A DNA stretch of 64,000 bases from a bacterium (GTDB taxonomy: Bacteria > Myxococcota > UBA727 > JAUIJE01), in contig JAUIJE010000021.1 in NCBI GenBank assembly GCA_030431455.1, forward strand, positions 1 through 64,000. The letters run 5' to 3'. Both the position numbers and the translations under genes were made by a program. Position 1 is the stretch's first letter. Each line of letters opens with the position of its first letter. The notes under the pieces were generated by a model. The model saw only the letters and a list, made by a program, of their open reading frames with translations. It was not told the origin of the DNA and did no database searches. This document shows positions 46,270 to 53,976 of this stretch, piece by piece.

Positions 46270-46707
46270 TCACCCCGCGCGGCCGTGGGTGCGCACCCCG
46301 CGGTAAAAGTGTTCGAACCCTTCGAACGCCAAGAGCGCGTCCTCCAGGTCCGTGCCCTCTCGCAGGCAAAAAGCATCGAAGCCCACCCGGGCCAAATAAT
46401 GCAACTGGTCTTTGCCGAGGTCGCCCACCGCGCGCAGTTCGCCTTTGTAGCCGAGCTCCTCCCGCAGGCGCTTGGCGTGGGTGTAGCCGCGGCCGTCACC
46501 GAACACCGGGAAGTTCACCGCGATGTGCTGGACGCCTTTGAGCTTGCCCCCGAGATCGAGCACGTTGTCGGTGGGCTCGATCAAAAGCTGGGCGCCGCCG
46601 TCCTGCAGAAAGGTCGCGACGTCGACGTACCCGCCCGCGGTCACCGGGGCTTGGTCCTCCACGATGGCGGGGCTATCCATGGTTTTGGCTTGGATCATCT
46701 GGCTCAT
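46270..46707 (-). CDS. DUF934 family protein, sulfite reductase partner
   Basis: A 145-residue soluble protein of the DUF934 family, which regularly sits next to assimilatory sulfite reductase genes and may serve its electron supply or assembly. Motifs VNFPVFGDGRGYTHAKRLRE and DLGKDQLHYLARVGFDAF are characteristic. The ATG at 46707 overlaps the sulfite reductase stop (ATGA), so it is translationally coupled; longer in-frame starts lie within that gene. Last gene of the cys operon. Confidence 0.88.
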   Translation of the reverse strand: MSQMIQAKTMDSPAIVEDQAPVTAGGYVDVATFLQDGGAQLLIEPTDNVLDLGGKLKGVQHIAVNFPVFGDGRGYTHAKRLREELGYKGELRAVGDLGKDQLHYLARVGFDAFCLREGTDLEDALLAFEGFEHFYRGVRTHGRAG

Positions 46708-48356
46708 GACTTCTCCCCGTACACCGCATCGAAGAACGGCTGCTGGCCCAGCCGGCGGAAGGCCTGCAAGAACGGCTCGTCCGGGCCCTTGCGTTTTGCC
46801 AAGTACACATCGCCGATGGTCTCGATGGCGTCGGTGACCTCTTCGCGCGAGAGCGCGGGGCCAAGCCACTTGCCGAGGCTGGCTTCGTCGCCGGCTTCGC
46901 CCCCGAGCATGATTTGATAGGCCTGCACGCCTTTTTTGTCGATGCCGAGGATGCCGATGTGGCCGACGTGGTGGTGCCCGCAGGCGTTCACGCAGCCGGA
47001 CATCTTGAGCTTGACCTCGCCGAGCTGCACCAGCTTGTCACTGTTGGCGAAACGGTCGGTGATGTCCTTCGCGATCGGGATCGAGCTCGCGTTGGCCAGG
47101 CTGCAGAAGTCGAGCCCGGGGCAACAAATCATGTCCGTGATCAGGCCGTGGTTGGCGGTGGCGAGCTCCAGGGCGTCGAGCTTTTCGTAGAGCGCGCGCA
47201 CCTTTTGGGCCTCCACGTCACAGAGCACGAGGTTCTGTTCGTGGGTGGTGCGGATTTCGCCGAACGAAAACTCGTCCGCCAGGTCCGCGAGCTGTTCCAT
47301 CATCGCGTCGGTGATGTCCCCGGGCGGACGCTCGGTGGACTTCAGCGAGACCAGGACCGCGCGGTAGCCGGGCTGTTTGTGTTCGATGATGTTGTGCTTC
47401 AACCACTGGGCGTAGCGGGCATCCCCGTTGGGCCCAGTGACCTCGTCGGGGAGGCCCGATTGGTACGGCGGGTCCTCGAAGAAGGCCGCGTACTTTTCGA
47501 AGTCCGCGTCGGTCAGGGTCAGCGGCCCGCCTTTGATCTTTTCGAACTCCTCCTCGACCCGGGCCTGGAACGCCTCGAGGCCGAGGGTGCGGAGCAGAAT
47601 CTTGATCCGGGCTTTGTACTTGTTCTTGCGGTCGCCTTCGAGGTTGTACACGCGCAAAATCGCGTCAATGTAACTGAGCAGGTGCTCTTTCTCGAGGTGG
47701 CTTCGCACGCACTTGGCGATCACCGGGGTGCGGCCGATGCCCCCGCCGGCCCAGACCTCGTAGGCCAAGCCCCCGTCGGGCCCTTTGATCAGCCGCACGC
47801 CGATGTCGTGAAAACGCATCGCGGTGCGGTCGTCCTGCGCGCCGGTCACGGCGATCTTGAACTTGCGCGGCAGGTAGTTGAACTCGGGGTGGAACGTCGA
47901 CCACTGGCGAATCATCTCGCTGGTGGGCCGCGGGTCGAACAGCTCGTCCTTGGCCACCCCCGCGTACTGGTCCGAGGTGGTGTTGCGCACGCAGTTGCCC
48001 GAGGTCTGGATCGCGTGCATCTCGACCGAGGCGAGGTCTTGCAGCAAGTCCGGCACGTCCTCGAGCTCGGGCCAGTTGTACTGGATGTTTTGCCGGGTGG
48101 TGAAGTGGCCGTAGCCCTTGTCATATTTGCGCGCGATGTGCCCGAGCATGCGCAGCTGGTCGGAGCTGAGCATGCCGTAGGGGATCGCCACCCGCAGCAT
48201 GTAGGCGTGGCGCTGTTTGTAGAGGCCGTTGCGCAGGCGAAGCTGCAAGAACTCGCCGTCGGACAAGGTCCCGGCCTTGTACCGTTTGACCTGGTCGCGG
48301 AACTCGGCGACGCGGCTGTCCACGATGCTCTGGTCGACGGGGTTGTACCTATACAT
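46704..48356 (-). CDS. Assimilatory sulfite (or nitrite) reductase, siroheme type
   Basis: A 550-residue hemoprotein performing six-electron reduction, here most likely sulfite to sulfide given the operon. Siroheme/4Fe-4S ligands: Cys 412 and Cys 418 in CCPGLDFC and Cys 455 and Cys 459 in CVNACGHHH (C-x5-C and C-x3-C). Also typical: GYGHFTTRQNIQYNWPEL and TSGNCVRNTTSD. No NADPH flavoprotein subunit is encoded nearby, so a ferredoxin-type donor is inferred. GGAGG six bases before ATG supports the start, which overlaps the cobA end by 8 bases. Confidence 0.9.
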   Translation of the reverse strand: MYRYNPVDQSIVDSRVAEFRDQVKRYKAGTLSDGEFLQLRLRNGLYKQRHAYMLRVAIPYGMLSSDQLRMLGHIARKYDKGYGHFTTRQNIQYNWPELEDVPDLLQDLASVEMHAIQTSGNCVRNTTSDQYAGVAKDELFDPRPTSEMIRQWSTFHPEFNYLPRKFKIAVTGAQDDRTAMRFHDIGVRLIKGPDGGLAYEVWAGGGIGRTPVIAKCVRSHLEKEHLLSYIDAILRVYNLEGDRKNKYKARIKILLRTLGLEAFQARVEEEFEKIKGGPLTLTDADFEKYAAFFEDPPYQSGLPDEVTGPNGDARYAQWLKHNIIEHKQPGYRAVLVSLKSTERPPGDITDAMMEQLADLADEFSFGEIRTTHEQNLVLCDVEAQKVRALYEKLDALELATANHGLITDMICCPGLDFCSLANASSIPIAKDITDRFANSDKLVQLGEVKLKMSGCVNACGHHHVGHIGILGIDKKGVQAYQIMLGGEAGDEASLGKWLGPALSREEVTDAIETIGDVYLAKRKGPDEPFLQAFRRLGQQPFFDAVYGEKS

Positions 48357-49152
48357 GAATGGCCTCCGGCGCGGCCTCGGCCGCGGCCACAGTGGACAAG
48401 ATGGGGGTCATGGAGTCGGCCAGGCCCACCGCCTGCCCGAGCACGAGCAGCGCGGGGGTGCCGAGACCGGCCGCCTCGACGTCGTCCACGATGTGGGCGA
48501 GCCGGCTGTGCACAATTTTTTCTTCGGGGAGCGTGGCGCTCTGCACCATCGCGCACGGCATCGCGGGGTCGACCCCAGCCGCGAGCAGGCGGTCCTGGAT
48601 GAGACCGAGCTTTTTACGCGCCATCAAGAACACCAGCGTGCCGCCGGCCTCGGCGAGGAGCGACCACTTGTCGGCCAATCCCTCGACGTCAAACGCGCTC
48701 GACGCGGTCACGATGGTCACGTGCTGTGCGATCGCCCGATGGGTCACGGGCACGTGCGCGGCCGCGGGACCGGCCAGCGCCGAGCTGATGCCGGGCACCA
48801 CCTCGTGCGGCACCCGCGCCTCGGTGAGCGCGATGGCCTCTTCCCCCCCGCGCCCGAACACGAAGGGGTCGCCCCCCTTGAGCCGCACCACGTAGTGACC
48901 GGCCCGCGCCTCCTCGATGAGCAGGCGGTTGGTCACCTCCTGGGGCGTGTGCCGGCCGTCGGCGAGCTTGCCCACGTCGAGCACGCGGGCGTCTTCACGA
49001 CAGTGCGCGAGGAGCGCGGGGTTGGCCAGGGCATCGCACAACACCACATCGGCCCGCGCCAGGTGGCGCACCGCCTTCAGGGTGATGAGCTCAGGATCGC
49101 CCGGGCCCGCGCCCACCAGGGCGACAAAACCAACGGGAGGGGTCTTTTCCAC
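48349..49152 (-). CDS. cobA: Uroporphyrinogen-III C-methyltransferase (SUMT)
   Basis: A 267-residue enzyme that makes precorrin-2 from uroporphyrinogen III with two SAM, the entry to siroheme. Motifs: VGAGPGDPELITLKA (N-terminal), RLKGGDPFVFGRGGEE and VPGISSALAGPAAAHVPVTHR. I set the start at GTG 49152: AAGGAG lies six bases before it and the cysK stop ends one base before it; an upstream TTG lies inside cysK. Only the SUMT half of CysG is present; the dehydrogenase part is encoded at 35745. Confidence 0.92.
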   Translation of the reverse strand: MEKTPPVGFVALVGAGPGDPELITLKAVRHLARADVVLCDALANPALLAHCREDARVLDVGKLADGRHTPQEVTNRLLIEEARAGHYVVRLKGGDPFVFGRGGEEAIALTEARVPHEVVPGISSALAGPAAAHVPVTHRAIAQHVTIVTASSAFDVEGLADKWSLLAEAGGTLVFLMARKKLGLIQDRLLAAGVDPAMPCAMVQSATLPEEKIVHSRLAHIVDDVEAAGLGTPALLVLGQAVGLADSMTPILSTVAAAEAAPEAIHV

Positions 49153-49153
49153 G

Positions 49154-50086
49154 TCACGCTCCTTCAGCGTCAAACAACGGCGTAGACAAATACCGTTCGC
49201 CGGTATCGGGCAACACCGTCACGACGTTTTTCCCGGCCCCGAGGCGCTCGGCCACGCGGACCGCCGCGGTCACCGCCGCCCCGCAGGAGATGCCCACGAG
49301 CAGGCCTTCTTGGCGCGCGAGCAGCCGGGCCATCTTCATCGCCGCGTCGCTATCCACCTTTTCGATGGAATCGATCACGGATTTGTCGAGGATGTCGGGG
49401 ATAAAGCCCGCCCCGATGCCCTGAATCTTGTGCGGCCCGGGCGATTGGCCGGACAGCACCGGCGACTCCGCGGGCTCGACGGCCACGATCTCGGCCCCGG
49501 TCTTTTTCTCCTTCAGGACCTGGCCCACGCCGGTGATGGTCCCGCCGGTGCCGACCCCGGCCACGAAGGCATCCAGGGACAGGCCCTGCATGTCCTCGAG
49601 AATCTCCGGCGCGGTGGTCTCGCGGTGGGCTTTGACGTTCGCTTCGTTTTTGAACTGCTGCGGAATGTACGCGCTCTCGGACCGCTCGAGCAGCTCTTGG
49701 GCTTTGTCGATCGCGCCCTTCATGCCGAGGCTCGCGTCGGTGAGCACCAGCTCCGCCCCGAGGTGCCGCAAAATCTTGCGGCGCTCGATGCTCATGGACT
49801 CGGGCATGGTGAGCACGAGCTGGTAGCCCTTGACCGCGCACACCATGGCGAGGCCGATGCCGGTGTTGCCCGAGGTGGGCTCGATGATCACGCTTTTGCC
49901 CGGCGTGATCAGGCCTTCTTCTTCGGCGCGTTCGATCATGAACAGCGCGGGCCGCTCCTTGACGCACCCGAGCGGGTTGAACAGCTCGGGCTTGACCCAC
50001 ACCGTGGCCGCCCCGTCCGGCACCACGCGGTTGAGCTTGACCAAGGGGGTGCGCCCCACCGTCTGGTTGATGTTGTCAAATCTCAT
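49154..50086 (-). CDS. cysK: Cysteine synthase A
   Basis: A 310-residue PLP enzyme making L-cysteine from O-acetylserine and sulfide. The PLP Lys is Lys 43 in GCVKERPA (Glu replaces the usual Asp), substrate loop [12 protein letters not shown], and phosphate loop [17 protein letters not shown] near the end holds the pyridine-binding Ser. Length is normal for CysK. ATG at 50086 follows GGAGGAG and lies within the end of cysN (11-base overlap). Confidence 0.94.
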
Positions 50087-51851
50087 AGAACCACTCCTCC
50101 ACGCCGCGTTTGAGGCGCGGTCCGATGTGTGCGAGCACTTTGTCTGCGGCGTCGGCCAGGCCGGTCTGTTCGGGGTCGACCACCAATGTGTCTGGGCTGT
50201 CCCCCTCGCGGCCCACCCGCACGGGGAAAAACTGCGCCACCCCCGCGAAGCGCGGCACCACCCGTTCGGGCGGGATCGCGATGCACAAAAGCCCGGCCTT
50301 GGCCAGCTGCCGCGCGCAGGCGAGCACCGCGCGGTTGTCCGCGCCTTCGAGCAGGCCGTCGTCGACCATGGCGGTGGCAAAGCCCGCGTCGAACAATTGC
50401 CGTTCCAGGGCCCGGGCGAACTCCAGCCGTGGGCCTTTGCCCGACAGCCACACCACCCCGCCTTGGTGCCCAAAACGGCGCGAACGCTCTTCGCTGCTCA
50501 CCGGCAGGTGACTCGGCGCCGCGGGCGCGTCGGCGGCCACATCGTAGGGCGCATCGTAGATGACCCCGCCCCCGGCCAAGTCGTAGCCGTCGACGACCAC
50601 GAACCGCCCCGAGGGGGCGATGACGTCGGCGGCATCGAACGCGATGGGCTGTTCGGTGACAAACTCCACCTCGGCCACGTCGTTCTTGTTGATCTTGTCC
50701 TTTTGGCTGGTGTGCACTTCCAATGTCGATGCATCAAACACGCGGTCGATGCGCGCGAGCTTGGCCGGGACCTCGGCGGTGCAGAGCTTGATCTTCACCG
50801 GGCGGCCCACGTCGAGGCTCTTTTGCCCCATCCAGAACACCCGGGCCTTGACCCGGTTGCTGGTGGCCGCGCGCTGTTCGCCCTCGGCCTGGGCCGCGAC
50901 GTGACCGCGCTCGACGAAGATCTGTTCGGAGAGCGTGATGCCCACCGACTCGCCCGCCACCGCGGTGGTCTTTTCCGGCGCCGACCACGTCTCGATGGAC
51001 TGGACCGTGCTCTCCTTGCCCCCGGGCAAGAACACCAACTTGTCCCCCACCGAGAGCGACCCCGACTCGATGCGCCCGGCGAGGATGCGCCGGTGATCGA
51101 ACCGGTAAATGTCCTGCACGTAAAACCGCAGCGGGGCCTTTTCGTCCCGGGCCGGGACTTCAAAGTCGTCGAGCACGTCGGTGATGGTGCCGCCGCCGTA
51201 CCACCCGGTGTGGGGCGAGCGCTCGGCCACGTTGTCGCCGTCCCGCGCGCTCACGGGGATGAAGCCGAGCGGGTCCACCCCAATGGTGGAGAGGTACTGG
51301 CGATACTCGCGTTCGATGTTGTCGAACACCGCCTGGTCGTAGCCCACGCGGTCCATCTTGTTCACCACCACGAACACTTGCTTGACCCCGAGCATGGAGA
51401 GCAAGTACCCGTGGCGCCGGCTTTGCTCCTGCACGCCCTCGTCGGCGGCGATGAGCAACAAGGCCGCGTCGGCCTGGGCCGCGCCGGTGATCATGTTCTT
51501 CAAAAACTCTTTGTGACCGGGCGCGTCGATGATCACGTAGCGCCGCTTGTCGGTGGCGAACCAAATCTGCGCGGTGTCGATGGTGATGTTCTGGTCGCGC
51601 TCGGACTTGAACGCGTCCATCAAGAACGCCCACTCAAAGGGCACGCCCCGGCGCTCACAACTTTTTTCGATCGCTTCTTTTTTGCCCTCGGGGAGCGAAC
51701 CGGTGTCGTGAAAAAGCCGGCCCACCAGCGTGGACTTTCCGTGGTCGACGTGACCCACAATGACAATGCGCAGCGGGGCCGCCTCCAACGCCTGGTTGTC
51801 CTCGGGGGTCGCGGGCTGTTGGCTCGATTTTGTTTTTGGTTGCGCGGTCAT
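50076..51851 (-). CDS. cysN: Sulfate adenylyltransferase large subunit with degenerate CysC-like tail
   Basis: A 591-residue GTPase subunit of ATP sulfurylase. G motifs: GHVDHGKST (about 33-41), [12 protein letters not shown]. Domains 2 and 3 run to about residue 440. The final 135 residues resemble an APS kinase ([20 protein letters not shown], then [14 protein letters not shown]), as in CysNC fusions, but the P-loop reads SGKGPRLEF instead of GxxxxGKS/T and the segment is shortened, so it is probably not an active kinase. The ATG at 51851 overlaps the cysD stop by one base. This fits the Fe-S type CysH encoded upstream. Confidence 0.92.
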
Positions 51852-52702
51852 CACATGTACCCCTCGGCGCGCAGCCGTTCGAACGCGTCTTCCGCTTCTT
51901 GGTCCTGGGCCCGGGTCGAGCGCTCGGCGATCTTGGTCCGCTTGAGCTCGACGATGATGTCCTCGGCGGTCTTGGCCGGCGACTCCACCCGCGACGTGCA
52001 CGGTTCGCACCCGAGGGAGCGATACCGACAGCCATCGCCCATGTCGTAATAGACCGGGACCACGGGGATGCCCTCGCGCTCGATGTACTCCCAAATGTTC
52101 ACTTCGGTCCAATGCAGCAGCGGGTGCACACGAATGTGCGTGCCCGGCTCAAAGTCGGTCTTGAACTGGTCCCAGAGCTCGGGAGGCTGGTCTTTGAAGT
52201 CCCATTCAAACGCCTTTCCTCGAGGAGAAAAGTAGCGTTCCTTGGCCCGGGTGCCCTCTTCGTCGCGGCGGATGCCGGCGAACACCGCGTCAAAGCCGTT
52301 CTTGCTGATGATCGCCTGCAGCGCGTCCTTTTTCAGCGCCGAGCAACACTCGACCCGGGTGGCGTTGCCCTCGGGGAACGTCTTTTTGCTGTTGTAGACC
52401 TCCCAGTTGGTCTCGACGATGAGCTCGAAGTTCCACTTTTTGGCGAGCTCATCGCGGAACTTGATCATCTCCGGAATCTTGTACTGGGTGTCGACGTGCA
52501 ACATCGGAAACGGGATGTGCCCAAAGAACGCTTTGCGCACCAGCCACAACATCACGCTCGAGTCTTTGCCGATGGACCACAACATGCCCACCTTGTCGAA
52601 CTTCTTGAACGCCTCGCGGATCACGAACACCGACTGCGCCTCGAGCTTGTCGAGGGCGAGGTCGCGCTCGCGCCGGGATTCAGGGACTTCGTCCAGACTC
52701 AT
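51851..52702 (-). CDS. cysD: Sulfate adenylyltransferase small subunit
   Basis: A 283-residue PP-loop ATP pyrophosphatase that adenylates sulfate with CysN. Signatures: [18 protein letters not shown] (PP-loop), [37 protein letters not shown] and the terminal [16 protein letters not shown] at 52702 has AAGGAA 9 bases upstream and overlaps the cysH stop (ATGA); a longer frame to 52768 lies in cysH and is rejected. Confidence 0.95.
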
Positions 52703-53448
52703 TGTGCACTTCCTTTGCTGCCCGGGTGTAGGCCACACTCTTTTTGATCCGGGCTTTCCCACCACCAACGGCCGGACCGGATGTCGACGAGGTCTTCACG
52801 TCCCTTTTCGTAGCCAGGCACCGGACGCGTGCACGGAGCACACCCAATCGACGGGTAGCCCTCGTCGTGCAACCGGTTGAACGGCACATTGTGCTGTTGC
52901 ACGAAATCCCACAGGTCCTGCTCGCTCCAGCGGGTCAGCGGGTTGACCTTGACCATGCCGTGGCCCTCGTCGTGCTCGAACACCGGCAGCCCGCGACGGG
53001 TCACGCTCTGCGCGGCCCGGAGCCCGGTGATCCACGCCTGTTTGCCCGAAAGCGCCCGGGACAGGGGCTCGACCTTGCGAATGCGGCAACACTCTTTGCG
53101 GTTGTCGACGGAGTCGAAGTACGACTGCGGACCCTTGAGCCGCACAAGCGCCTCGACCACTTCGGTCTTCGGGAAGTAGACATCGAACTCCATCTTGTAC
53201 CGGTGCCGGGCTTGGTCCATCACAATGTATGTGGATTCGGGCAGCCGGCCGGTGTCGAGGGTGAACACCCGGACCTTCAGCCCCGCCTCGGACAACAGGT
53301 GCAGCAGCACCATGTCCTCGACCCCGAAGCTGCAGGCCATGGTCAGCTTGTCGCCAAATGTCTCGTGGGCGAAGGCGAGGATGTCCTGCGCGTCCGCGTC
53401 GGCGAAGCGTTGGTTGAACGATTCGAGGTGGTCGAGATGCGCGCTCAT
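52699..53448 (-). CDS. cysH: Adenylylsulfate (APS) reductase, Fe-S type CysH
   Basis: A 249-residue thiol-dependent reductase converting APS to sulfite. Cys 120-Cys 121 (KECCRIRK) and Cys 203-Cys 206 (GCAPCTRP) are the four ligands of the 4Fe-4S cluster seen in APS reductases and absent from PAPS-specific CysH; catalytic Cys 238 is in KECGLH. Also LDTGRLPE and [13 protein letters not shown] precedes ATG 53448, which overlaps the upstream small membrane gene stop (ATGA). Confidence 0.93.
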
Positions 53449-53759
53449 GCCGCCTCCCCGAGGGGTTTGCGCAGACGACGACCGAGGACGCGGCGCAACC
53501 ACGGCCGGTCATTTCGGTAGTAGAGGACCTGGGCCAAAAACGTGCTGCGGAAGACAATGCCGAGCATGAAGCCCCCGATGAACACCGTTTCGCCGAGGTG
53601 AATCGCGTAGAGGAACGCCAACACCCGGCCGAGCAGATTCAGTCCGGGAAAGAAGGGCGAGATGTCGTCGGCGTGTTTGCGCTGAAACAGCCTCGCGATT
53701 TGCGGGAGGTAGCTCGCCTCGATGGCGACGATGCCCAGTGCTCCGATTGTTGCCCACAT
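53445..53759 (-). CDS. Three-helix PQ-loop / LAB_N-like membrane protein
   Basis: A 104-residue membrane protein, first structural gene of the cys operon. Three hydrophobic segments: WATIGALGIVAIEASYLPQI, NLLGRVLAFLYAIHLG and VFIGGFMLGIVFRSTFLAQVL. The SYLPQIARLF pattern resembles PQ-loop/SemiSWEET proteins and the N-terminal domain of lipid A synthase-like proteins; I cannot separate these. A basic C-terminal tail (RRVLGRRLRK) should be cytosolic. Its stop overlaps the cysH start by 4 bases. A role in uptake or export of a sulfur compound is suggested only by position. Confidence 0.75.
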   Translation of the reverse strand: MWATIGALGIVAIEASYLPQIARLFQRKHADDISPFFPGLNLLGRVLAFLYAIHLGETVFIGGFMLGIVFRSTFLAQVLYYRNDRPWLRRVLGRRLRKPLGEAA

Positions 53760-53771
53760 GTCTGACCCCAC

Positions 53772-53808
53772 ACGAAGGGCCGGCTGCGTCGTCCGCGCCG
53801 GCCTTCGT
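53772..53808 (-). promoter_or_regulatory. Leader hairpin between polycysteine ORF and cys operon
   Basis: The arms ACGAAGGGCCGGC (53772-53784) and GCCGGCCTTCGT (53797-53808) pair over 12 bp with one bulge. No U tract follows, so it is not an intrinsic terminator; it ends 12 bases before the start of the first operon gene, next to its ribosome-binding region. An 8-base element just behind the leader stop (53846-53853) is exactly complementary to its loop (53791-53798). Confidence 0.65.
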
Positions 53809-53852
53809 TCCTTGAGAGATTTGATTTTGTCGAGGAAGAAAGGTTGCGCGGA

Positions 53853-53945
53853 CTAGCCACAACAACAGCAACAACAGGTGTCGCCGCAACACGCCGCCTG
53901 GGCGGTGATCTTGAACTGGGGCTCAAGGGCGCGTTGCATGTTCAT
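53853..53945 (-). CDS. Polycysteine leader peptide upstream of cys operon
   Basis: A 30-codon ORF beginning MNMQRALEPQ and ending CCGDTCCCCCCG: eight Cys, six in a row directly before the final Gly and stop. It lies 93 bases before the first gene of the sulfate-assimilation operon, on the same strand. Run-on Cys codons in a short ORF are the hallmark of cysteine-responsive attenuation, described for polycysteine short ORFs in mycobacteria. No Shine-Dalgarno precedes the ATG; the mRNA may be leaderless. It is too short for normal gene finders. I infer regulation, not an enzymatic role; a small metal-binding peptide is the alternative. Confidence 0.8.
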   Translation of the reverse strand: MNMQRALEPQFKITAQAACCGDTCCCCCCG

Positions 53946-53947
53946 TG

Positions 53948-53976
53948 ACTGTGCGGTTTGGCCCTGGATCTGTCAA
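53948..53976 (-). promoter_or_regulatory. Candidate promoter of the polycysteine ORF and cys operon
   Basis: On the minus strand a perfect -35 TTGACA (53976-53971), 17-base spacer and a weak -10 CACAGT (53953-53948, three of six). Initiation 7-9 bases further would fall at about 53941-53939, where the second in-frame ATG (53939) of the leader lies, consistent with a leaderless transcript. Confidence 0.45.

Follow-up and report, generated by a model that had tools for sequence, protein, structure and literature searches.

Probable cysteine leader peptide upstream of the sulfate-assimilation operon in a Myxococcota genome

The window analysed here, a stretch of 64,000 nt from a Myxococcota genome, carries a short open reading frame (sORF) rich in cysteine codons directly ahead of a set of sulfate-assimilation genes, which raises the question of whether the frame acts as a sensor of cysteine supply. 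Our analysis suggests that it very likely does, as the leader peptide of a ribosome-mediated attenuator that would respond to cysteine. The sORF (53945-53853) has 30 codons and encodes MNMQRALEPQFKITAQAACCGDTCCCCCCG followed by a stop; six of its eight Cys residues are consecutive, and this run ends one codon ahead of the UAG. The first-pass annotation had reported the length, the Cys count and the six-residue run accurately and had given no strand; the frame lies on the minus strand, and translation of the plus strand of 53853-53945 yields nothing of interest. The 93-base distance to the operon that it had noted also stands, since the last base of the sORF stop (53853) and the ATG of the first operon gene (53759) are that far apart on the same strand.

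Across the 7.7-Mb genome, about 10 sites contain at least five tandem TGY triplets, and only at the window site do these triplets read as cysteine in the closing codons of a short ORF that begins with a start codon. Codon choice differs between the leader (6 TGT and 2 TGC) and the operon (9 TGT and 22 TGC; Fisher p = 0.037, small numbers). None of 4227 Rfam families scored above the gathering score in the window, and no NCBIfam family matched the leader peptides. Upstream of the leader, a segment of about 55 nt (window 54076-54023) shows 78% identity to a stretch of another contig (G000:C12:11395-11452, L002).

Downstream of the leader, the genes follow on the same strand in the order PQ-loop-cysH-cysD-cysN-cysK-cysG-cysI-DUF934 (Table 1). 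The earlier description of a complete sulfate-to-cysteine operon is upheld by profile matches that identify cysH, cysD, cysN, cysK, a siroheme-type methylase and sulfite reductase. Since the 7.7-Mb genome has no PF01507 genes other than the cysH and cysD of this operon, the leader precedes the sole sulfate-reduction operon detected. The PQ-loop protein bears weak similarity, below the cut-offs, to SemiSWEET and cystine-transporter models, and on this basis it may be a transporter of a sulfur compound. A related PQ-loop gene stands directly ahead of cysH in one f17 genome (G029, L026 2235-2588). The genome had been taken as Gram-negative and probably myxobacterial, in agreement with 26 matches to MYXO-CTERM tags vs 0 in 14 control genomes.

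Table 1. Features of the leader region and the downstream operon in the 64,000-nt window.
Feature	Coordinates	Strand	Evidence or remark
Probable promoter	53948..53976	-	-35 TTGACA 53976-53971; 17-nt spacer; weak -10 CACAGT 53953-53948
Polycysteine leader sORF	53853..53945	-	30 aa from first ATG; 28 aa if Met3 start
Region 2, 5' half of antiterminator-like hairpin	53832..53853	-	G of UAG stop + UCCGCGCAACCUUUCUUCCUC
Region 3, common to both mutually exclusive hairpins	53791..53813	-	AAGGAACGAAGGCCGGCGCGGAC
3:4 hairpin, site of relatives' terminator	53772..53808	-	ACGAAGGCCGGC/GCCGGCCCUUCGU
Candidate Shine-Dalgarno GGGGU of PQ-loop gene	53765..53769	-	sequence + predicted fold
PQ-loop membrane protein, first gene of operon	53445..53759	-	PF04193 4e-10
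cysH, PAPS/APS reductase	52699..53448	-	PF01507 1e-48
cysD, sulfate adenylyltransferase small subunit	51851..52768	-	PF01507
cysN / cysNC-like, sulfate adenylyltransferase large subunit	50076..52112	-	GTP_EFTU; TIGR02034 above cut-off; ORF as listed, real start lies further downstream
cysK, cysteine synthase A	49154..50104	-	TIGR01139 438.8 bits, above cut-off
Tetrapyrrole (siroheme-type) methylase, cysG-like	48349..49173	-	PF00590 1e-49
Sulfite reductase, cysI/sir	46704..48356	-	PF01077 + PF03460
DUF934 protein, last gene of operon	46270..46704	-	PF06073 1e-30

The recurrence of this arrangement was investigated in relatives whose loci were reached via cysH, in a sample of 90 cysH-positive Myxococcota genomes without close kin of the window genome. 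The first-pass annotation had named a lack of Cys-rich ORFs at this place in close relatives as a refutation of its reading; this refutation fails, as such sORFs do lie ahead of cysH or cysI in 37 of the 90 genomes, belonging to the four families f1, f13, f24 and f30. They comprise all 27 genomes of g51, both of g21, one each of g75, g79, f30 and f1, two of six of g70, and two of four of the f24 genus g63; many cysH-bearing Myxococcota are without the sORF. A third g63 genome (L163, genome G098) has an assembly gap (Ns) at the place of the sORF and an intact terminator. A scan of 378 kb for sORFs of at most 100 aa in which a stretch of 10 residues holds at least 5 Cys yielded 16 within 700 nt upstream of cysH, compared with 5 elsewhere on the same strand and a single one on the other strand; two of the five found elsewhere are leaders of operons that start with sulfite reductase. 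The same scan gave no comparable excess of other residues upstream of cysH. Moreover, about 80 cysH loci in genomes of other phyla yielded no comparable sORF; at a looser threshold one locus outside the phylum, L097, shows a single long Cys-rich frame.

Except for Cys, the peptides differ between families (for example MTHSHTPTAAPFASRCCPSCACCRQPDLGC, MTFRFAQTVPVAAAALRCCCCACAIPWRSGELLERV, MRTVSATSFDHTAACCCCACCCCRPAGRAPGDFA and MSAFASSCCCCCACPVRALAGREPVTSA). Within g51 and g21 the Cys columns are nearly invariant and mostly TGT while the neighbouring residues vary; across families the Cys clusters alone recur and the remaining peptide is not alignable. The main clusters of the relatives end roughly 7-15 codons before the stop, compared with one codon in the window. 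At L217 (oriented 1897-2038, genome G172), 12 consecutive Cys codons consist almost wholly of TGC repeats, a pattern that suggests expansion by slippage.

The promoter region indicates how translation of these sORFs may begin. The -35 TTGACA named in the first-pass annotation is present as part of a probable promoter (Table 1), and, as had also been stated, SD-like (Shine-Dalgarno) sequence is absent ahead of the window sORF. The weak -10 is separated by 2 nt from the first ATG and by 8 nt from that of Met3 (in frame, at 53939), which makes Met3 the likelier, leaderless start. Among the relatives, TTGAC(A/G/T) occurs 37-41 nt ahead of the start codon in nearly all leaders, and the -10 is about 7-13 nt from the start in most, likewise without an SD. 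The exceptions L013, L198 and L157 have a duplicated promoter-like stretch and a greater distance between promoter and start, and no TTGAC was found at the L217 leader. Because the promoters lie so close to most starts, the sORFs look leaderless. The earlier suggestion of a leaderless transcript accords with a promoter-start spacing conserved in four families, and initiation in the window and its relatives would probably be leaderless, with start sites placed from sequence.

In every relative family with an sORF, an intrinsic terminator lies between the sORF nearest the sulfur gene and the start of cysH or sulfite reductase, beginning about 22-32 nt past the sORF stop (17 nt in one call); the f30 terminator, GAAGGCCCGCCCCC-GAAAA-GGAGGCGGGCCTTC-TTGTTTTTT, serves as an example. 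Genomes of g51, g21 and g79 carry two sORFs in tandem, of which the first is in most cases followed by a separate terminator, 30-47 nt beyond the stop (mostly 39-47). Because of this terminator, the Myxococcaceae-like genomes (a label assigned from kinship) appear to place two attenuators in series. The upstream tandem sORFs of L024, L199, L201 and L205 show no terminator above threshold, and the terminator call for the upstream sORF of L021 is doubtful. At three g70 loci (L258, L259 and L260), a terminator-like hairpin is kept before cysH and the Cys codons are lost.

In the relatives with an sORF, pairing is possible between region 2, at the sORF end (e.g. GGCGGGUGCCGAGCA), and region 3 (UGCUCG..GCGGCCCGCC), which consists of the 5' arm of the terminator together with its flank; this modelled pairing is a classical antiterminator in its predicted form. 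To compare ribosome positions, the RNA was cut after region 3 and a ribosome was placed either on the Cys codons or at the stop. The 2:3 pairing was likelier with the ribosome on the Cys codons in 29 of 30 leaders (mean 0.64 vs 0.30), a count that comes from related sequences, also reflects more free upstream RNA and does not constitute an independent test. With the upstream part shuffled, folding energy was better than the shuffle mean in 20 of 20 leaders (z -1.1 to -4.7); the energies alone stand out, since the probability that region 3 is paired falls within the shuffle range for most leaders. In helix B, counted on hand-anchored segments, a compensatory replacement of C-G by U-A occurs at one pair in two lineages, and G-U takes over at two other pairs. 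RNAalifold on a MAFFT alignment missed the antiterminator, owing to a 2-nt displacement of helix B in some sequences. When whole leaders were folded at equilibrium, the complete terminator won nearly everywhere, whatever the ribosome position, and for this reason the switch must be kinetic.

The leader is also found in front of a further gene of the pathway. A covariance model (R1) of the terminator-side leader, which also matched Myxococcaceae-like cysH leaders, revealed in seven g51 genomes (L248-L254) an additional copy, MSLPLTTTGAQCCCCCRVACACCLAGPEHWESA followed by a stop, together with a terminator, directly before a cysteine-synthase-type gene (cysK). Relative to the start of the R1 match, the sORF of these copies begins about 60-100 nt upstream and ends 43 nt downstream, and the downstream gene of L249 belongs to the PALP family. 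A cysteine sensor ahead of a cysteine-forming enzyme is hard to explain otherwise. Weak R1 matches at L255, L256 and L261-L264 were rejected as leaders, being plain terminators or coding sequence.

The window leader shares part of this architecture. As in trp-type attenuators, its ORF holds a run of codons for the end product of the pathway, and mutually exclusive 2:3 and 3:4 hairpins are predicted in the window as in the relatives. The intrinsic terminator before the first gene that marks every relative sORF family is absent from the window, where the 3:4 hairpin has no U-tract (tail GUGUGGGGUC) and the terminator-side model R1 finds no match. The 2:3 hairpin is present in both the minimum free energy (MFE) and centroid structures, with an MFE that beats 198 of 200 shuffles (z -2.93; whole leader z -2.77). 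The modelled probability that region 3 is paired upstream is 0.74 with a ribosome on the Cys codons and 0.39 with one at the stop, where the ribosome is predicted to abolish 2:3 so that the full 3:4 hairpin forms. Once 2:3 has formed, the SD GGGGU can pair with region 4 (GGCCCU) in the predicted fold; folding of the window leader gave SD accessibility without a clean on/off pattern.

Taken together, these elements suggest a trp-type switch, for which we infer the response to cysteine, the direction of switching and the output step in the window. Transcription would start at or a few nt from the sORF start codon, and the first ribosome would load without an SD. When Cys-tRNA is scarce, the ribosome would slow on the Cys codons, leaving region 2 free to pair with region 3 and the operon on; when cysteine is ample, a ribosome at the stop would cover region 2, and 3:4 would form a hairpin that represses expression ahead of the first gene. 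This hairpin is the intrinsic terminator in the relatives, where the output would be premature transcription termination. The window hairpin, lacking a U-tract, might instead act through inefficient or factor-assisted termination, or by controlling ribosome access at the adjacent SD. The trp-type reading is favoured for the window because of its homology of design with the relatives.

One rival explanation is a translational attenuator of the mycobacterial kind, which would give the switch the opposite sign: a stall on the Cys run would mask region 2, 3:4 would form, the SD GGGGU would be freed from region 4, and the PQ-loop gene and the rest of the operon would be translated more. We consider this a serious possibility, albeit one with clearly less than even chances. 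The missing U-tract speaks for it, as do the Cys run adjoining the stop, as in mycobacteria (PMC1262725), the MFE structure, which combines 2:3 with pairing of region 4 and the SD, and the removal of the outer 2:3 helix by a block through the last Cys codon. However, a real terminator occupies that place in every relative family, a stall at the first Cys codons would fall short of region 2, and the modelled SD accessibility varies as noted above. The loss of the U-tract could also mean that a former terminator-type attenuator is now degenerate in the window genome, its peptide translated with little or no regulation, and the g70 loci without Cys codons illustrate that the element can decay. 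This is unlikely, given that the window antiterminator hairpin is still unusually stable and the six-Cys run is intact and TGT-rich.

Cys-rich peptides can bind metals or thiols, and the sORF product could accordingly be a functional thiol- or metal-binding peptide rather than a sensor. Such a role appears highly improbable, for only the Cys clusters recur across families, and it would leave unexplained both the terminator with its antiterminator and the position before cysH, cysI and cysK. A chance origin of the window polycysteine ORF is excluded by simulation, in that none of 100 simulated 64-kb windows with matched dinucleotide composition contained a frame with at least 5 Cys among the 12 codons preceding a stop. 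It might still be argued that a TTG/CTG-rich stretch encoding a Leu run in another frame was misread as Cys, since in that frame the stretch encodes LLLLLLW, part of a 127-aa open frame of a sort common in 69% GC DNA. This is scarcely credible in view of the simulations and of the Cys-rich frames with interrupted C-x-C patterns that recur here in other families.

The trp-type switch proposed here can be set against known systems. Leaderless polycysteine sORFs have been described in mycobacteria (Canestrari et al. 2020, as cited in PMC9094748, PMC9031893 and PMC13236596), and they are described as acting on translation (PMC9031893, PMC13236596). Earlier work had compiled candidate Cys leaders from Mycobacterium, P. 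acnes and B. longum, the mycobacterial ones having no conserved terminator hairpin (PMC1262725). The window leader resembles the mycobacterial sORFs in its contiguous Cys codons near the stop, its place directly upstream of cys genes, a leaderless start (reported there, probable here) and the proposed attenuation by cysteine supply. The two systems differ in that the Myxococcota relatives carry an intrinsic terminator with a competing antiterminator, often twice in tandem, in that the peptides have no evident similarity, and in gene order. The claim of the first-pass annotation that the same logic operates as in mycobacteria therefore holds for the cysteine leader and its probable leaderlessness and gives way to a trp-type scheme for the terminators and antiterminators of the relatives.

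Another near system is the uORFC-8-2 motif upstream of cysS in Rhodobacterales (PMC8632094). This leader uORF of a Gram-negative group likewise combines Cys codons in tandem with an intrinsic terminator, and transcription attenuation by Cys-tRNA supply has been proposed for it (PMC8632094). It has only two such codons, as a rule at positions 14 and 15, and it precedes a tRNA synthetase gene, whereas the window leader precedes the cysH operon of sulfate assimilation. With the trp/his-type attenuators of Proteobacteria, the Myxococcota leaders share sensor codons, overlapping 2:3 and 3:4 hairpins and a stop near region 2. Unlike those attenuators, they would sense Cys from a probably leaderless sORF, with tandem double attenuators in Myxococcaceae-like genomes and a window copy without a U-tract. 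In a full-text literature search that covered largely open-access papers, no such leader was reported from Myxococcota or ahead of the sulfate-assimilation operon of any Gram-negative bacterium.

What was already known is thus cysteine attenuation by polycysteine sORFs in actinobacteria and a proposed two-Cys cysS leader in Rhodobacterales. We tentatively advance, as a possible but doubtful scenario, that Myxococcota evolved leaderless cysteine-leader attenuators of cysH/cysI operons and of cysK independently of actinobacteria, with an output that changes by lineage: most would use canonical and often doubled transcription terminators, and that of the window would lack a terminator and switch at the level of translation. 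Leaderless initiation in a Gram-negative attenuator, if true, would be unusual. Overall, with the sensor coupled to terminators, present as a tandem pair and duplicated ahead of cysK, it becomes testable whether cysteine leaders had a repeated origin and how the output of an attenuator shifts between transcription and translation.
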